NCBI GenBank assembly: GCA_040757115.1
Contig: JBFLYA010000169.1
Location: 1 to 8,197 of the forward strand
DNA from: a bacterium
GTDB taxonomy: Bacteria > UBA9089 > CG2-30-40-21 > SBAY01
Direction of reading: 5' to 3'
Length of the DNA stretch: 8,197 nt
Part shown: one piece after another, positions 579-7,392 of the stretch
How the letters are laid out: each line of letters opens with the position of its first letter
How positions within the stretch are numbered: the stretch's first letter is position 1
Position numbers and translations under genes: made by a program
The notes under the pieces: model-generated
What the model saw: the letters and a program-made list of their open reading frames with translations, nothing else
Databases searched by the model: none
Told to the model about the DNA's origin: nothing

Positions 579-3104
579 TTAGCCTTCTATCTTTTCAATC
601 CGCACTCGGGTAGGACCTAAATAGTCTTTTTTAATTAAACTCAAGACATTTTTACCTGGGTGATGTGGAATAAAAACAACACCTTTTGGAGATTTACGAA
701 TGATTTTAGTTTTTACCTTAATTCCTGCTTCTCGCGAACTGACCTTGACTAATTCTTCATTTTCAATCTCTAATGCTTTAGCATCTTCTGGATTTATTTC
801 GACAATCGACTCCTGACAAACCTCCATCAATGCGGGTGATTTTCCAGACATTGAGCCAGAATGAAAATGGGTATGCCCTGTTAGTAATAAAAAGGGATAA
901 TATTTGTCTTCTACGGGCAATTTTTCAAATGTTTGTGGCACAAACTTCCATTTAAGTCTTTGCGTTCCTTTGTCTGGTGTACTATAGCCTGGCACAAGGC
1001 TCTTTATTTCATCCATTACCTCTGCTGAATTAGAGTAATTTATCTCATAACCTAATAATTTTGATAATGTTATAAATATTTCGAGGTCTGATTTAGATTT
1101 ACCTATTGGGGACAATGCCATATTCAATTTTTGCACCTTCCCCTCAACATTGGTAAAAGTCCCTTCTTTTTCGGCAAAAGCACAGGCAGGTAAGACGACA
1201 TCGGCTAATTTAGCCGTTTGGGTTAAAAACATATCCTGAACAACTAAAAACTCCAGAGATTCTAAAGCCTGTTTAATCTGGTCTGAATCAGGGTAAGTTT
1301 CAATTGGATTTTCTGCCACAATATAAAGCCCTTTTACCTTGCCTTTTTCTAATATTTCTAAGGCAGATAGTCCTCTAAAAGATGGTAATTTCACATTCCA
1401 AACCTGTTCAAATTTTTCTCTTATTTTATAATCTGTTATTTCCTGATAACCGGGTAAAAATCCTGATATTGTTCCCATATCTACTGTGCCTTGAGAATTA
1501 TTTTTTTCAAGTAAGATTCCTATTCCTGCACCTTCTTTCCCTAAATTTCCAGTAAGTAGTGCAAGATTTGCGGCAGATTGAGCTAATTTGACTTCCTCGC
1601 CAGGTAAATTCAAACCAGTAGAAATCAAAATAATCGCTTTTTGTGAATTACCATAAGTCTTAGCGGCATTCTTAATGAGTTCTTTATCTATCCCGGTTAT
1701 CTTTGACACTTCCTGGGGGGTATATTTTTCAACTGATTTTTTCAGTTCACCAAATCCTTCAGTATGTTTTGAAATGAAATCCTTATCTACCAATCCCTCA
1801 TTTATCAGGACATTAATGATGCTATTGAGCAGGGCAATTTCAGTTTTTGGATGGTGGATGAGGGAGAGGTTTGGAAGTTTGCTCATTTTTATATTTTTCG
1901 GATTTATGATGATTAATTTAGCCTCATTTCTTTTAACTGCCAGATTAACCTTTATACCAATTGTCGGATGGGTTTCTGAAAGGTCACATCTTAGAAGCAC
2001 AATACAATCTGCTTTGTCAATATCCGAAAGAGAGATTGTCATCCCGGCAGAGCCTAAAGATTGCTTTAATCCCATAAGACCTGCGTAAGCGTAGCTGCCG
2101 GCATTATCAATATTATTAGTTTGCAAGCCCGCGCGCATAAGTTTCTGGAAGAGATAAACTTCTTCATTTGTCAGGCGACTACCACAAAGTCCAGCTAAAT
2201 TATTAGCCGGAATTTCTTTAAATTTTTTAGCGATTAAATCAAGTGCCTCTTCCCAACTTGCCTCAATCAATTGGTCATCTTTTTTAATTAAAGGCGTTGT
2301 AAGTCTTTGTTGGCTATGAACATATTCAAAACCAAACCTACCTTTACTGCATAGATTCCCACCATTACTTGTTGCTTGAAATATTTTATTATCTTTAATT
2401 CCGAGGTTAAGATGACAGCCGACACTACAAAATGGGCAAATAGTCTGAACATTTTGTAATTCCCAGAGTCGGGCTTTATATTTAAAAAGTTTAGAAGTCA
2501 ACGCCCCAACCGGGCAAATATCAATACACTGGCCACAAAATTCACAATTCAGAGCTCGGTCAAAATCTGTGCCTATTTTAGCTCTAATGCCCCGATTAAC
2601 AAAGCTAACCTCGGCGACATCCTGTAATTCATCACAAATCCTGGCACATTTACCACACAGGATACAGCGATTTAGATTGCGTTCGATAAGGTGACTCTGA
2701 TGGTCTATTGGCAATCTTGATTTTTCACCTTTAAACCTATTTTCTGCAACGCCATACTCATAGACTAAATCCTGTAATTGGCATTCACCGGCTTTATCAC
2801 AAACAGGGCAATCCAGAGGATGATTAATCAGCAAGAGTTCCAAAATAGTCTTTCTCGCTTTGATAATATCCGCAGAGGTAGTTTTTACTACCATCCCATT
2901 AGTTGCTGGTGTAGTGCAGGAAGGGGTGAATTTTTGCCTTGTTCCTTCTACCTCGACAATACAAATTCGGCAGGCACCAAAAGGTAAAAGTCTTTTATCG
3001 TAGCACAATGTTGGAATATGACTTCCTGCTTTTTCGCAAGCCTCAAGGATTGTTGTTCCTTCTTCTACCTGTATTTCTTTTTCGTCAATAGTTAAACTTA
3101 ACAT
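579..3104 (-). CDS. nuoG: NADH-quinone oxidoreductase subunit G (NuoG), iron-sulfur and molybdopterin-fold subunit
   Basis: This is the large peripheral-arm subunit of complex I (841 residues; E. coli NuoG is about 900, Thermus Nqo3 about 780). An N-terminal [2Fe-2S] domain has C34, C45, C48 and C63. The His-Cys [4Fe-4S] site is H95, C99, C102 and C108. Two full ferredoxin-type sets follow: C147/C150/C153/C157 and C187/C190/C193/C197. An N7-type set sits at C223/C226/C230/C252. The rest is a molybdopterin oxidoreductase fold close to formate dehydrogenase, including the segment near 597-660 and the C-terminal domain (about 740-841). At the catalytic position of formate dehydrogenases (Cys/Sec followed by His) I read Ala339-Tyr340, so formate oxidation is not expected. 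The ATG has AAGG seven bases upstream. It lies 12 bp after the 90-residue gene and 12 bp before the 129-residue gene. No nuoE or nuoF precedes it. An alternative reading is a NuoG-like subunit of a ferredoxin- or hydrogenase-linked complex. Confidence 0.93.
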   Translation of the reverse strand: MLSLTIDEKEIQVEEGTTILEACEKAGSHIPTLCYDKRLLPFGACRICIVEVEGTRQKFTPSCTTPATNGMVVKTTSADIIKARKTILELLLINHPLDCPVCDKAGECQLQDLVYEYGVAENRFKGEKSRLPIDHQSHLIERNLNRCILCGKCARICDELQDVAEVSFVNRGIRAKIGTDFDRALNCEFCGQCIDICPVGALTSKLFKYKARLWELQNVQTICPFCSVGCHLNLGIKDNKIFQATSNGGNLCSKGRFGFEYVHSQQRLTTPLIKKDDQLIEASWEEALDLIAKKFKEIPANNLAGLCGSRLTNEEVYLFQKLMRAGLQTNNIDNAGSYAYAGLMGLKQSLGSAGMTISLSDIDKADCIVLLRCDLSETHPTIGIKVNLAVKRNEAKLIIINPKNIKMSKLPNLSLIHHPKTEIALLNSIINVLINEGLVDKDFISKHTEGFGELKKSVEKYTPQEVSKITGIDKELIKNAAKTYGNSQKAIILISTGLNLPGEEVKLAQSAANLALLTGNLGKEGAGIGILLEKNNSQGTVDMGTISGFLPGYQEITDYKIREKFEQVWNVKLPSFRGLSALEILEKGKVKGLYIVAENPIETYPDSDQIKQALESLEFLVVQDMFLTQTAKLADVVLPACAFAEKEGTFTNVEGKVQKLNMALSPIGKSKSDLEIFITLSKLLGYEINYSNSAEVMDEIKSLVPGYSTPDKGTQRLKWKFVPQTFEKLPVEDKYYPFLLLTGHTHFHSGSMSGKSPALMEVCQESIVEINPEDAKALEIENEELVKVSSREAGIKVKTKIIRKSPKGVVFIPHHPGKNVLSLIKKDYLGPTRVRIEKIEG

Positions 3105-3116
3105 TTCTTTACCTTA

Positions 3117-3389
3117 TTATACAGAAACTAATCTTTTTTGAACGGTTACAGTCACACCGTATCCTAAACGGTTTAAAAATTCTTCACAATCATCCCATGT
3201 AATTCCAAATGCCTTCACATCACTTAGTCCTAAACAGCCGATGATTTCCCGTAAGGTATCAAAATTTACCTTATCAAATTCAGCTTCCATCATCATTGAT
3301 TCTGCCCAATTTACTAATTCCTCTATGGTGAGCCGATGGTAGAGATAATCTATTAATTTTTGTGCCACCTCTTTACTTGTAACCTTCAA
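3117..3389 (-). CDS. small conserved-looking protein of unknown function, second of a gene pair
   Basis: The 90-residue product is mostly helical and acidic in its first three quarters, with a Trp-Asp-Asp-Cys-Glu-Glu segment near 65-70, and ends in a short beta-like Val/Thr stretch with basic residues. It has no signal peptide, membrane helix or metal-binding motif. I know of no name for it. The start is TTG at 3389-3387, chosen because GGAGGT lies eight bases upstream and because no ATG occurs until residue 32 or so. That ribosome binding site is made from the last codons and stop of the preceding 82-residue gene (GGG AGG TAA), so the two are translationally coupled. It follows that gene by 6 bp and precedes nuoG by 12 bp. 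The composition and tight fit argue that it is real rather than a chance frame. Confidence 0.8.
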   Translation of the reverse strand: MKVTSKEVAQKLIDYLYHRLTIEELVNWAESMMMEAEFDKVNFDTLREIIGCLGLSDVKAFGITWDDCEEFLNRLGYGVTVTVQKRLVSV

Positions 3390-3395
3390 TTGAAA

Positions 3396-3404
3396 TTACC
3401 TCCC
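3396..3404 (-). promoter_or_regulatory. Shine-Dalgarno embedded in the upstream stop, deciding a TTG start
   Basis: On the minus strand the last two codons and stop of the 82-residue gene read GGG AGG TAA. GGAGGT within this lies eight bases before TTG at 3389, an ideal spacing. It fixes the unusual start of the 90-residue gene and implies coupled translation of the pair. Confidence 0.8.
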
Positions 3405-3644
3405 GTAAGTTTTATGTCCTTTATCTACCGGATATTTTTCATGAATTTCAACTAATTCCCCTTTTTCATTATAAATTTCTTGATAGAACCTAATTGTTTT
3501 TTCTGATGAATCAACTTCTTTAATATACTGAGCCTTCCATCCATAACGACCCTGAACTTCATAGAAATATCTTCGACCGCCATTTTCTAATTTCACCCAA
3601 TTACCAAACTTTTGTTCATTCTCTCTTCGTTTATCTCTATCCAT
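3396..3644 (-). CDS. small basic protein of unknown function, first of a gene pair
   Basis: The 82-residue product is charged and basic at the N-terminus (MDRDKRRENEQKFG), rich in aromatic residues (several Trp, Tyr and Phe), and probably a small beta-sheet-rich fold. A Glu-Lys-Tyr-Pro-Val-Asp-Lys-Gly-His segment lies near the C-terminus. There are no cysteines for metal binding, no signal peptide and no membrane helix. I recognise no named domain. The ATG has AGGTAGAGA just upstream, overlapping the nuoD stop (GAT AGG TAG), and the gap to nuoD is 8 bp. With the 90-residue gene it forms a two-gene cassette set precisely between nuoD and nuoG, where nuoE and nuoF are often found. A toxin-antitoxin-like pair or a complex I accessory or assembly pair are both possible; neither is shown by a motif. 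Confidence 0.82.
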   Translation of the reverse strand: MDRDKRRENEQKFGNWVKLENGGRRYFYEVQGRYGWKAQYIKEVDSSEKTIRFYQEIYNEKGELVEIHEKYPVDKGHKTYGR

Positions 3645-3652
3645 TAGTATCT

Positions 3653-4831
3653 CTACCTATCTATCTCCCCCAAAACAATGTCCAGACTGCCGATGATGGC
3701 AACGACATCTGCAACCATCATTCCACCTTCAATCATCCTGTCAATAGACTGCAAATTAGCAAAAGATGGCGGACGAATTTTTAAACGATATGGTTTATTT
3801 GAGCCATCTGAGATGATATAAAATCCAAGTTCTCCCTTTGGAGCTTCGATAGACTGATAGATCTCTTTTTGAGGTGGTTTAAATCCTTCAATGACTAATT
3901 TGAAATGGTGGATAAGTGCTTCTATGTCTGTCAAAACCTTATCTTTTGGTGGTGGAACAATTTTTGCCTCTTTGGCAATAAAATCACCCTCAGGGATTTG
4001 AGCAAGAGCCTGTTGGACAATTCTACAACTCTGTCTCATCTCTTCCATTCGCACCAAATATCTATCGTAAACATCCCCTACCCCTCTACCCGTAGGAATA
4101 TCAAACTCAAGTTCACCATAGACACAATACGGTTCTACTTTACGAATATCCCATTGAACACCGCTACCTCGCAATGAGGGGCCAGAAAGGCTATAATTAA
4201 TTCCATCCTCTTTCGAAATAATACCGACAAATTGGGTGCGTCGGAGCCAAATCTCATTTTTAGTCAATAAAGCCTCATATTCATCTACCTTTTTGGGAAA
4301 TATCTTCACAAATTTTTCTACCTTTTCAACAAATCCTGTGGGTATATCTTGTGGCAAACCACCTATTCTAAAACAGGAGGTAGTGAGTCTTGCTCCACAG
4401 AATAATTCATAAATATCCAGGATTGCCTCTCTTTCACGAAAGGCATATAAAAATGGGGTATAGGCACCAATGTCAAGGGCATGAGTCCCTATCCAGACTA
4501 AATGACTGGCAATTCTATTTAATTCAGTAAGTATAACGCGAATATAACTTGCTCGTTTTGGGACTTCCAAATTGAGTAATTTCTCGACTGCCAAACAATA
4601 AGCCAGGTTATTGGAGACAGCGGCTAAATAGTCCAACCTATCCGTTACAGGCAAAAATTGGGCATAGGTCATATTTTCCGCCATTTTCTCTATCCCGCGA
4701 TGTAAATAACCGATATGTGGAGTAATTTTGGTAATAATTTCCCCATCTAAATTTAACACCAGCCGCAAAACACCATGCGTGCTTGGGTGTTGAGGACCCA
4801 TATTAATTGTTAATTCTTGAGTATCAGGCAT
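3653..4831 (-). CDS. nuoD: NADH-quinone oxidoreductase subunit D (NuoD, 49-kDa subunit)
   Basis: This subunit forms the quinone-binding pocket of complex I together with NuoB, at the join of the peripheral and membrane arms. The 392 residues match the usual length of a stand-alone NuoD. The N-terminus carries the family signature GPQHPSTHG (12-20) followed by PHIGYLHRGIEK (38-49). H19 and Y68 align with the quinone headgroup ligands His38 and Tyr87 of Thermus Nqo4. The hydrogenase-derived fold is intact, while the NiFe-binding cysteine motifs are absent, as expected for NuoD. The C-terminus ends normally (DIVLGEIDR). The ATG is supported by AGGAGA about six bases upstream. It lies 14 bp after the 59-residue gene and 8 bp before the 82-residue gene. 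Unusually, nuoC is not next to it but 2.7 kb upstream, behind an accessory island. Confidence 0.98.
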   Translation of the reverse strand: MPDTQELTINMGPQHPSTHGVLRLVLNLDGEIITKITPHIGYLHRGIEKMAENMTYAQFLPVTDRLDYLAAVSNNLAYCLAVEKLLNLEVPKRASYIRVILTELNRIASHLVWIGTHALDIGAYTPFLYAFREREAILDIYELFCGARLTTSCFRIGGLPQDIPTGFVEKVEKFVKIFPKKVDEYEALLTKNEIWLRRTQFVGIISKEDGINYSLSGPSLRGSGVQWDIRKVEPYCVYGELEFDIPTGRGVGDVYDRYLVRMEEMRQSCRIVQQALAQIPEGDFIAKEAKIVPPPKDKVLTDIEALIHHFKLVIEGFKPPQKEIYQSIEAPKGELGFYIISDGSNKPYRLKIRPPSFANLQSIDRMIEGGMMVADVVAIIGSLDIVLGEIDR

Positions 4832-4845
4832 TTTTATCTCCTGTT

Positions 4846-5025
4846 TTATCGTATGGGTTTAAATTTTTTTAAATATTTAGCCCTTTTATATAATTCAAAA
4901 GCAATTCTAATCTTTTTTTCAAAAGGTTCTTTGGCAAATATCATCCGACTCTCTTCTTTTGATTTAAAAATTTTCTTTCTATATCTTTCAATATCTTTTT
5001 GATTTGTTGCTACTACATTATTCAT
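4846..5025 (-). CDS. 59-residue basic helical partner of the nucleotidyltransferase
   Basis: This short frame runs from ATG at 5025-5023 to TAA at 4848-4846. Its start overlaps the end of the nucleotidyltransferase by 8 bp (ATGAATAA), a typical coupled arrangement; there is no separate Shine-Dalgarno. The product is very basic and helical. Its second half holds a FAKEPFEKKIRIAFELYKRA stretch (30-49), which resembles the LPFEEKIRILVxL-type motif that, as I recall, occurs in small proteins encoded beside AbiEii-like nucleotidyltransferases. That family link is from memory. No membrane segment or cysteine is present. A role as antitoxin or cofactor-like partner of the neighbouring enzyme is an inference from the pairing. 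The gene ends 14 bp before nuoD, and the nuoD ribosome binding site lies in that gap. Confidence 0.75.
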   Translation of the reverse strand: MNNVVATNQKDIERYRKKIFKSKEESRMIFAKEPFEKKIRIAFELYKRAKYLKKFKPIR

Positions 5026-5551
5026 AATATTTTTTTACAAATTCATCAAACTTTTTATCTAATCCATATCTTTGCAAAATATCTGTCAAGAAAGATTTGT
5101 TTATCCTGGTTTGGTCTAAAAGTTTTATTAATTTATCCCTATCTTTCGGCCTATAGACTTTCAAAAATATTGCTATTAAGTATTCTGGCTTCATAATCTT
5201 AATATTCACATTTTTATATTTTACTGCGATGGCTTCTTTAACAGCTTCCTTTTCCAAATCTGTACTTGAAGGAATGAACTGAATTGGTATATCTCCTATG
5301 ATAACATATTCTTTATGTGTCTTATATCCTTTTTTCAATAAGAAATCATAGAAAGGTGTTAATATTATTATCTTTTCTTTCGCTGGTGGAATGAAAAAAA
5401 TATCTATGTCTTGAGTAGCAAATGGTTCGGTATAATAAATCGTAGCCACTGCTCCGCCAATTGCATAATCTTTAAGGATTCCCTCCTGACACATTTTATC
5501 AATTAGATTAAATACCCTTTCTATTCCTTTATTTTCATTTTCCTTTTTCAT
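5018..5551 (-). CDS. AbiEii-like nucleotidyltransferase-fold protein
   Basis: The 177 residues fit the minimal nucleotidyltransferase fold seen in AbiEii-type and related proteins. Visible motifs are the GGAVA turn (32-36), then T46-Q-D48-I-D50, where D48 and D50 would be the metal-binding acidic pair, an IPIQFIP strand (88-94) in place of a third acidic strand, and a helical C-terminal region with KPEYLIAIFL (121-130) and RPKDRDK (134-140), typical of the family. AbiEii members act as toxins by transferring nucleotides, but others in the fold have different substrates, so the target is not predictable. The ATG at 5551 lacks a clear Shine-Dalgarno. The frame is open a further 14 codons upstream with no usual start codon, and the next ATG would cut into the fold. 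It overlaps the 59-residue gene by 8 bp and probably shares a transcript with nuoD. Confidence 0.78.
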   Translation of the reverse strand: MKKENENKGIERVFNLIDKMCQEGILKDYAIGGAVATIYYTEPFATQDIDIFFIPPAKEKIIILTPFYDFLLKKGYKTHKEYVIIGDIPIQFIPSSTDLEKEAVKEAIAVKYKNVNIKIMKPEYLIAIFLKVYRPKDRDKLIKLLDQTRINKSFLTDILQRYGLDKKFDEFVKKYYE

Positions 5552-5568
5552 GAAATTTTTGACATCAT

Positions 5569-5607
5569 CTATCCAATTTTCTCTATAAATGCTTTAGCTG
5601 GAGTTTC
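5569..5607 (-). pseudogene. remnant of the 3' end of a second DUF5618-like gene
   Basis: Just upstream of the nucleotidyltransferase start, a minus-strand frame reads ETPAKAFIEKIG and then stop (TAG at 5571-5569). The intact gene at 5966-6343 ends AAKDFIEKIG and stop. At DNA level the segments starting at 5563 and 5960 match at 30 of 39 positions by my hand alignment. Upstream of the fragment the frame hits another stop at 5619-5617, so only the tail survives. This suggests that the nucleotidyltransferase was once preceded directly by a DUF5618-like gene. Confidence 0.5.
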
Positions 5608-5965: not shown

Positions 5966-6343
5966 CTATCCAATTTTTTCAATAAAATCCTTTGCAGCCT
6001 TAAAATACTCCTTGACTGCCTGGGTATTATAAATAAGTCCTCTATAATAACCTGCTATGTGCAAAGCATCATAAAGCATTTCAAACTCCCTCATCAACTT
6101 TCCATTATGAATAGCCAGATGCTTTCTTAATGCTTCTCTATATCCATCCACTGACTTTGGAATCTCTTTCTTTGTCATCTGCTTTTTTTTAATCAGATAT
6201 TCGTTTATTGCCTCAAGAATGGCCAGATATGCTGTGGCAAAAGCCTCTCGGACAGGCTTAATATCAAGATAGGTATTATCTTCTATGGGAATAGATTTTA
6301 ATATCTCCTTTGCATTATTTAAATACCTTAATGACTCCTTCAT
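5966..6343 (-). CDS. DUF5618-like all-helical protein
   Basis: The 125-residue product is predicted all-helical, with an N-terminal LRYLNNAKEIL helix, a central REAFATAYLAILEAINEYL helix (32-50), a GYYRG turn (98-102) and a C-terminal helix ending AAKDFIEKIG. The overall pattern matches my recollection of DUF5618 and resembles HEPN-type four-helix bundles, which often pair with minimal nucleotidyltransferases. Two R-x5-H spacings (R69/H75 and R73/H79) exist, but their placement is not convincing as the catalytic HEPN motif. There is no membrane segment or signal. The ATG at 6343 has AAAGGAGAT about ten bases upstream. It sits 414 bp before the nucleotidyltransferase, and a remnant of a sibling gene lies right next to that enzyme, so an original helical-protein plus nucleotidyltransferase pairing is plausible. 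The family assignment is moderately sure; the biochemical role is unknown. Confidence 0.72.
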   Translation of the reverse strand: MKESLRYLNNAKEILKSIPIEDNTYLDIKPVREAFATAYLAILEAINEYLIKKKQMTKKEIPKSVDGYREALRKHLAIHNGKLMREFEMLYDALHIAGYYRGLIYNTQAVKEYFKAAKDFIEKIG

Positions 6344-6957: not shown

Positions 6958-7392
6958 CTAAAAGAATCTCTCCAGCAATTTAACAAATGTAGGATTACAG
7001 AGGGTTAAGGCAAGAAGGGCAATGGCAATAAAGATATTTAACCTGAAATTAAGACTCTTAAACCTCTCATTCATCTCCTTTTCCAAACTTTTAAACCTTT
7101 CATCAACTACATTAAACCTCTCATCAATCCAATTTTTCATACCATTAAATCTTTCATCAACCATATTAAATCTTTCCTCAAAAATCTCTCTTGTAACAAG
7201 CTCTTTCTTTAACTCTTCTCTAACTTCTACCTTTATCATCTCTTTCTTTTCAACAATTACCTCTTTTGCCTTCTCGTCAATCGCGATTATAGCCTGTTCT
7301 ATTGCCTTAGCAAATATCTCTGCCTTCCCATTATCCCCAAATGCCTCTTTTAATAGTTCAAAACAACTTCTTGGTAATGTATATGCAATCAT
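6958..7392 (-). CDS. coiled-coil protein with ERF repeats and a C-terminal membrane anchor, function unknown
   Basis: The 144-residue product has a short N-terminal domain (1-40), a long charged coiled coil (about 41-117), a hydrophobic helix (about 118-133) and a short tail. There is no N-terminal signal, so it is probably cytoplasmic and tail-anchored. The coiled coil carries five ERF starts at residues 73, 80, 91, 98 and 109, giving 7-11-7-11 spacing, a mixed heptad/hendecad pattern. The general look resembles DUF1640/CCDC90-like and many unnamed bacterial coiled-coil proteins, but I cannot assign a family. The ATG has GAAGGTGA close upstream. Promoter-like TTGACA and a palindrome lie just before it, and nuoC upstream ends in a terminator-like hairpin, so it probably forms its own transcription unit. 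The antisense frame over this gene is a shadow. Confidence 0.8.
   Translation of the reverse strand: MIAYTLPRSCFELLKEAFGDNGKAEIFAKAIEQAIIAIDEKAKEVIVEKKEMIKVEVREELKKELVTREIFEERFNMVDERFNGMKNWIDERFNVVDERFKSLEKEMNERFKSLNFRLNIFIAIALLALTLCNPTFVKLLERFF

Follow-up and report, generated by a model that had tools for sequence, protein, structure and literature searches.

Genomic context of the gene pair

The window, i.e. the whole 8,197-bp stretch of DNA analyzed here, is a complete contig (G000:C169) from a 4.3-Mb genome of 462 contigs, belonging to a thinly sampled phylum (19 genomes). Its minus strand carries, in order, nuoC, several small genes, nuoD, two small genes that we refer to as A and B, and nuoG. 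Both A and B are single-copy in the host genome. The features at the center of this study are:

3653..4831, minus strand: nuoD, upstream flank of the pair (Complex1_49kDa match)
3396..3644, minus strand: gene A, 82 aa, ATG start, basic (pI 9.1), proposed toxin-like effector
3390..3429, minus strand: A tail, comprising the last ~11 codons of A and the Shine-Dalgarno sequence of B, GGGAGGT
3117..3389, minus strand: gene B, 90 aa, TTG start, acidic (pI 4.75), proposed antitoxin-like partner
579..3104, minus strand: nuoG, downstream flank of the pair (Molybdopterin, Fer2_4 and NADH-G_4Fe-4S_3 matches)

The spacers between nuoD and A, A and B, and B and nuoG are 8, 6 and 12 nt, bearing out the sequence-only reading of a tightly embedded 82/90-residue gene pair. 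The TTG start assigned to B in that reading is likewise backed by relatives, whose N-termini, M-K-I-T or M-x-V-T, align with it. Both ribosome-binding sites had been described as built from upstream stop regions; this stands for B, whose Shine-Dalgarno sequence overlaps the stop codon of A (ACGGGAGGTAATTTCAATTG), while the site ahead of A (GATAGGTAGAG) is the weaker of the two. Because of this overlap, translation of B is probably coupled to that of A. No promoter of the pair's own, terminator or known RNA stands out at the locus.

Sequence families and predicted folds

A shares 81% identity with a family relative and 58-82% with the copies at most loci in other phyla; for B, identity to relatives ranges over 35-79%. 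On account of these identity levels we take both to be real genes and not chance open reading frames. No Pfam match was found for A or B, either singly or as alignments (43 A and 50 B sequences), nor any NCBIfam match for single A, single B or the 43-member A alignment, the members of B having been profile-scanned against Pfam only. Single-sequence scans of both proteins against PADLOC and PHROGs gave nothing above cut-off, and profile searches of PDB sequences gave no match. Scattered profile matches with E-values of 0.002-0.1 differ from member to member and were set aside as chance. By these searches A and B constitute a previously undescribed pair of protein families, in keeping with the earlier suggestion of an undescribed two-protein system, as neither protein could be placed in a characterized family.

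The two families have median pI values of 9.0 (A) and 4.6 (B). Single-chain AlphaFold2 models predict an N-terminal helix followed by a six-stranded antiparallel sheet for A (pLDDT 90.5) and five helices for B (pLDDT 92.2). In comparisons with solved folds, the best Foldseek E-values were 0.14 for A (SnoaL-like) and 0.99 for B (an XRE regulator), and the best VIA-align matches had Z 6.9 and rmsd 6.6 over 69 residues for A (an Rhs core) and Z 5.2 and rmsd 3.7 over 72 residues for B (a flagellar chaperone). We dismissed these matches, their scores lying within the range common among unrelated models. A viral fold library returned nothing better than an E-value of 0.016, which was set aside too. 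No HTH or RHH family was matched by any of the 50 B sequences, and the Foldseek similarity of B to XRE proteins is insignificant.

Conserved residues of A (95-100% identity) alternate along the predicted strands (R24, Y26; A38, Y40, K42, V44; F53, Q55, I57; L64, E66, H68, K70), and one face of the sheet is nearly invariant, polar and aromatic (R24, Y26, Y40, K42, Q55, E66, H68 and K70). In the model, this face suggests a site for binding or cleaving RNA or a nucleotide. A opens with a helix, continues in antiparallel strands and gathers conserved R/K/H/E/Q/Y residues on one face, as a BECR RNase might. Its predicted layout is compatible with the BECR fold of RelE/ParE superfamily toxins (described in PMC11980606), but six strands and a single helix are not the RelE layout. 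No PDB match of A was significant, whether to BECR toxins or otherwise, and there was no Pfam match to them either.

Distribution and pairing

A profile scan over 84,980 species genomes yielded 53 A loci from approximately 16 phylum-level groups of bacteria and archaea, with carriers including Nitrospirota, Planctomycetota, Bacillota, Chloroflexota, Bacteroidota, Pseudomonadota and, in archaea, the methane oxidizer Methanoperedens. B is paired with A in 52 of these loci. It lies directly downstream on the same contig in 51, and in the remaining pair (L067) A sits at a contig edge while the A tail and B open another contig of the same genome. The sole A locus without B in its genome (L063) encodes an A that is missing its C-terminus. 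The two genes, first paired from a single operon, are therefore found together almost without exception. Their junction is usually an ATGA overlap or a gap of 0-13 nt, the 4-nt ATGA overlap being the commonest form. At one Latescibacterota locus (L022 4252-4776), B runs on, by fusion or read-through, to form a 175-codon open reading frame.

Elsewhere, the neighborhoods of the pair are unrelated to one another and include rsfS/dtd, an ABC transporter, tRNA or envelope genes, and toxin-antitoxin (TA) arrays. Since these neighborhoods have nothing else in common, A-B is, on genomic evidence, a free-standing two-gene unit and no part of complex I. The sequence-only reading had offered a long-established complex I accessory or assembly pair as one explanation of the locus. 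Such a role would account for the seamless fit between nuoD and nuoG, and one of about 50 other loci (L047) also lies near NuoF/NuoG-like genes. However, nearly all the others occur in unrelated contexts, close relatives have nuoD without an adjoining pair, and a sister species has lost A out of the same nuo operon (see below), and we consider a complex I function highly improbable. The other branch of the earlier reading, a TA-like cassette, is the one that the present results favor.

TA-type genes among 112 neighbors of the pair comprise three UPF0175 and two each of HepT-like, NTP_transf_2 and RelB-like genes; these are raw counts, from which no enrichment is claimed. The presence of the pair is patchy, with B in 72 of 395 Nitrospirota genomes and 21 of 75 Brocadiae genomes, and phyla are interleaved in the B tree, in which few forks are resolved. 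A-B thus appears to be horizontally mobile. Known TA families are usually present on plasmids and phages. Neither A nor B was matched in 72,556 plasmid records, 50,697 phage records, or viral contigs.

Asymmetric loss of A

To avoid anchoring on A, the 395 Nitrospirota genomes were searched with both profiles, and A was found in 49. Among the 59 genomes with a full-length B, approximately 41 have A directly upstream (its state being judged in part of these from profile span and not by gene-by-gene read-through), 13 have no A, four have a damaged A, and in one the locus is cut by a contig end. There are accordingly 17 cases of intact B without intact A versus none of intact A without B, the lone apparent exception (G107) being a contig end. 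A sign test on these counts gives p ~1.5e-5 with kinship ignored; the counts are per genome and not per evolutionary event, independent events are fewer, and most of the genomes are metagenome-assembled. A second lineage, sampled as 75 genomes of the class holding the Brocadiales, shows the same direction: both genes are intact at 12 loci, B is intact without an intact A at eight loci (in six genomes), and A alone was never seen.

Among the loci anchored on A, no fewer than nine combine a broken A with an intact B (L015, L042, L051, L053, L060, L061, L064, L068 and L069), and none shows the reverse. The damage includes stops, frameshifts, truncation and insertion. One of these loci comes from an isolate genome (L042, Moorella stamsii), where a TAA lies inside A next to an intact B; the rest are metagenome assemblies, in which some frameshifts may be errors. 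Recoding of in-frame stops was considered and rejected, as the TAAs of L042 and L053 fall at different, non-conserved places. Two arrangements within single genomes stand out. A second copy in G010 (L015 1480-1941) has A split by ~160 bp of inserted DNA with B intact, and another genome carries two near-identical copies of frameshifted A with intact B ~4.4 kb apart (L206 and L211; G485:C1:4126621-4131572).

That A is never intact without B, and that B often outlives A, is as expected if A is a poison and B its antidote. Read from the genomes, the asymmetry shows a dependence of A on B, and a non-toxic subunit would depend on its partner equally. The main rival reading is consequently a non-toxic two-subunit module, in which B is self-sufficient and A, of no use on its own, serves it as an accessory subunit, regulator or substrate. 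Such a module would suit the absence of intact A without B, as well as the purifying selection on lone B and the frequent retention of its ribosome-binding site after the loss of A (see below). On its own, though, it fails to explain why complete, same-orientation TA modules repeatedly take the place of A, why the pair is spread so patchily across phyla, and why it has a basic/acidic, TA-like format. We regard it as rather unlikely.

Replacement of A in place

G005, the closest relative, belongs to the same genus (NuoD 94% identical) and shares the operon. It agrees in sequence with the window through the end of nuoD, continues as other DNA, and then resumes a 97.7% match spanning the last 11 codons of A, B, and nuoG. 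The other DNA (L070 2313-2784) contains a 67-codon open reading frame and a RelE-like 93-codon open reading frame, the latter assigned by eye, and neither matches Pfam at E 0.001. From this pattern we infer that, in the sister species, A was replaced by a RelE-like cassette while B was kept together with its ribosome-binding site.

Comparable exchanges are seen in Nitrospira, where loci with the pair (L118, L126, L130, L131, L136) and with a lone B (L133, L135, L174, L175) have a common upstream flank up to the start of A or of its substitute. The substitute is a BrnT-like gene with a CopG-antitoxin gene in L133 and L175, DUF4258 with a small gene in L135, and DUF433 with DUF5615 in L174. At other loci a lone B is preceded by DUF433/DUF5615 (L124) or by Gp49 with an HTH gene (L138); the BrnT and L124 assignments were made by eye. 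Profile comparisons revealed no relation of A to its BrnT-like and DUF4258 substitutes, nor of B to an HTH antitoxin. A remnant of the A tail, consisting of the last few codons and the stop, lies just before B at 10 of 21 lone-B loci as opposed to 1.6% of control windows, as would be expected if selection has kept B expressed.

Between L133 and L175 the lone B genes have diverged to dS 0.85 and dN 0.12, and between L176 and L178 to dS 0.25 and dN 0.016. By this measure lone B is under purifying selection, and because L133 and L175 have the same replacement, their common ancestor probably carried B without A. Given such constraint, B probably has a role beyond neutralizing an adjacent A and keeps a function where A is missing; the constraint fits an anti-addiction role, a function of its own, or service as a hub for several toxins.

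The last of these would make B a shared antitoxin or third component for varied upstream toxin modules, of which A is merely the commonest. At a minimum of seven orphan-B loci (L124, L133, L135, L138, L139, L174, L175) B is preceded, at a distance of 16-60 nt, by a TA-type gene on the same strand, the RelE-like cassette of G005 also lies ahead of B, and there is precedent in partner-swapping antitoxins such as Panacea (PMC8832971). Yet the swapped-in modules mostly bring an antitoxin-like gene of their own, several lone B genes have no upstream TA gene (L117, L120, L176-L179), and insertion within TA islands could alone yield the same pattern. This reading seems to us improbable. Panacea (PanA) proteins are hyperpromiscuous antitoxins (PMC8832971), and B resembles them as one conserved gene with changing partners; it differs in its unrelated sequence, in having one dominant partner (A), and in that the alternatives upstream of B are complete modules and not single toxins. 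No DUF4065/Panacea domain was matched in B by Pfam. In a bolder version, which is a long shot, B would be a conserved hub that protects in its own right, is under selection even without A, and tolerates or neutralizes changing toxin modules placed directly upstream. If B were a hub, the A-B locus would be a site that exchanges its toxin half while the antidote half stays fixed.

A proposed toxin-antitoxin-like module

We hypothesize that A-B is a new TA-like module in which A is the effector and B neutralizes it, and we assign this reading a probability of roughly 0.62. A mobile module of this kind would have happened to land between nuoD and nuoG. A, a small basic protein, would be the harmful partner, its invariant sheet face binding or cleaving RNA or a nucleotide, and B, a small acidic helical protein made from a coupled start beside the A tail, would neutralize A through direct binding. 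Under such an arrangement A would be unable to persist without B, B would be able to lose A, and the space of a lost A would often be filled by another TA module.

HicAB was predicted from a set of criteria (Makarova et al. 2009, PMC2701414): two genes in one operon, small products, a patchy and mobile occurrence, copies on phages and plasmids and, in many cases, a partner that binds DNA. A-B displays the first three, and its presence on phages or plasmids was not seen in the collections searched. Held against type II TA systems more broadly (criteria as for HicAB and MNT-HEPN; PMC2701414), A-B is alike in its compact operon of small, strictly co-occurring proteins, its patchiness and apparent mobility, its basic first and acidic second protein, and the loss of the proposed effector more often than of its partner, A not being maintained without B, which may itself persist. 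Strict pairing, asymmetry in two lineages, in-place replacement of A, A-tail remnants ahead of lone B, the nearly invariant sheet face of A, and type II-like size, charge and operon form speak for the TA reading. Against it, A is unlike any known toxin family or solved fold, B belongs to no known antitoxin family and has no recognized DNA-binding domain, and plasmids, phages and viral contigs gave no matches. The purifying selection on lone B, and the fact that a non-toxic subunit would show the asymmetry as well, also count against it.

More generally, a testable function would be gained for two protein families that have had neither name nor profile, in carriers such as Nitrospira, anammox Brocadiae, Methanoperedens and Moorella, lineages of central importance to the cycling of nitrogen and carbon. 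Exchange of A in place has occurred repeatedly with B conserved, which provides natural experiments on why antidotes outlive their poisons and on whether one antidote can serve several toxins.

Other features of the nuo cluster

Several further small genes accompany the nuo genes of the window. Positions 4895-5597 are a clean 703-bp insertion relative to G005, where the sequence runs on gap-free. The insertion contains most of a 59-aa open reading frame together with a DUF2204-like nucleotidyltransferase (5018-5551), and may itself be a TA-like cassette within this nuo operon. At opposite ends of the nuo cluster (177-566 and 6958-7392) lie genes for two small proteins of no clear family, each with a coiled coil and a membrane segment. 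Between nuoC and nuoD lies a gene for a DUF5618 protein (5966-6343; E 2.9e-36), and DUF5618 is present in G005 as well.
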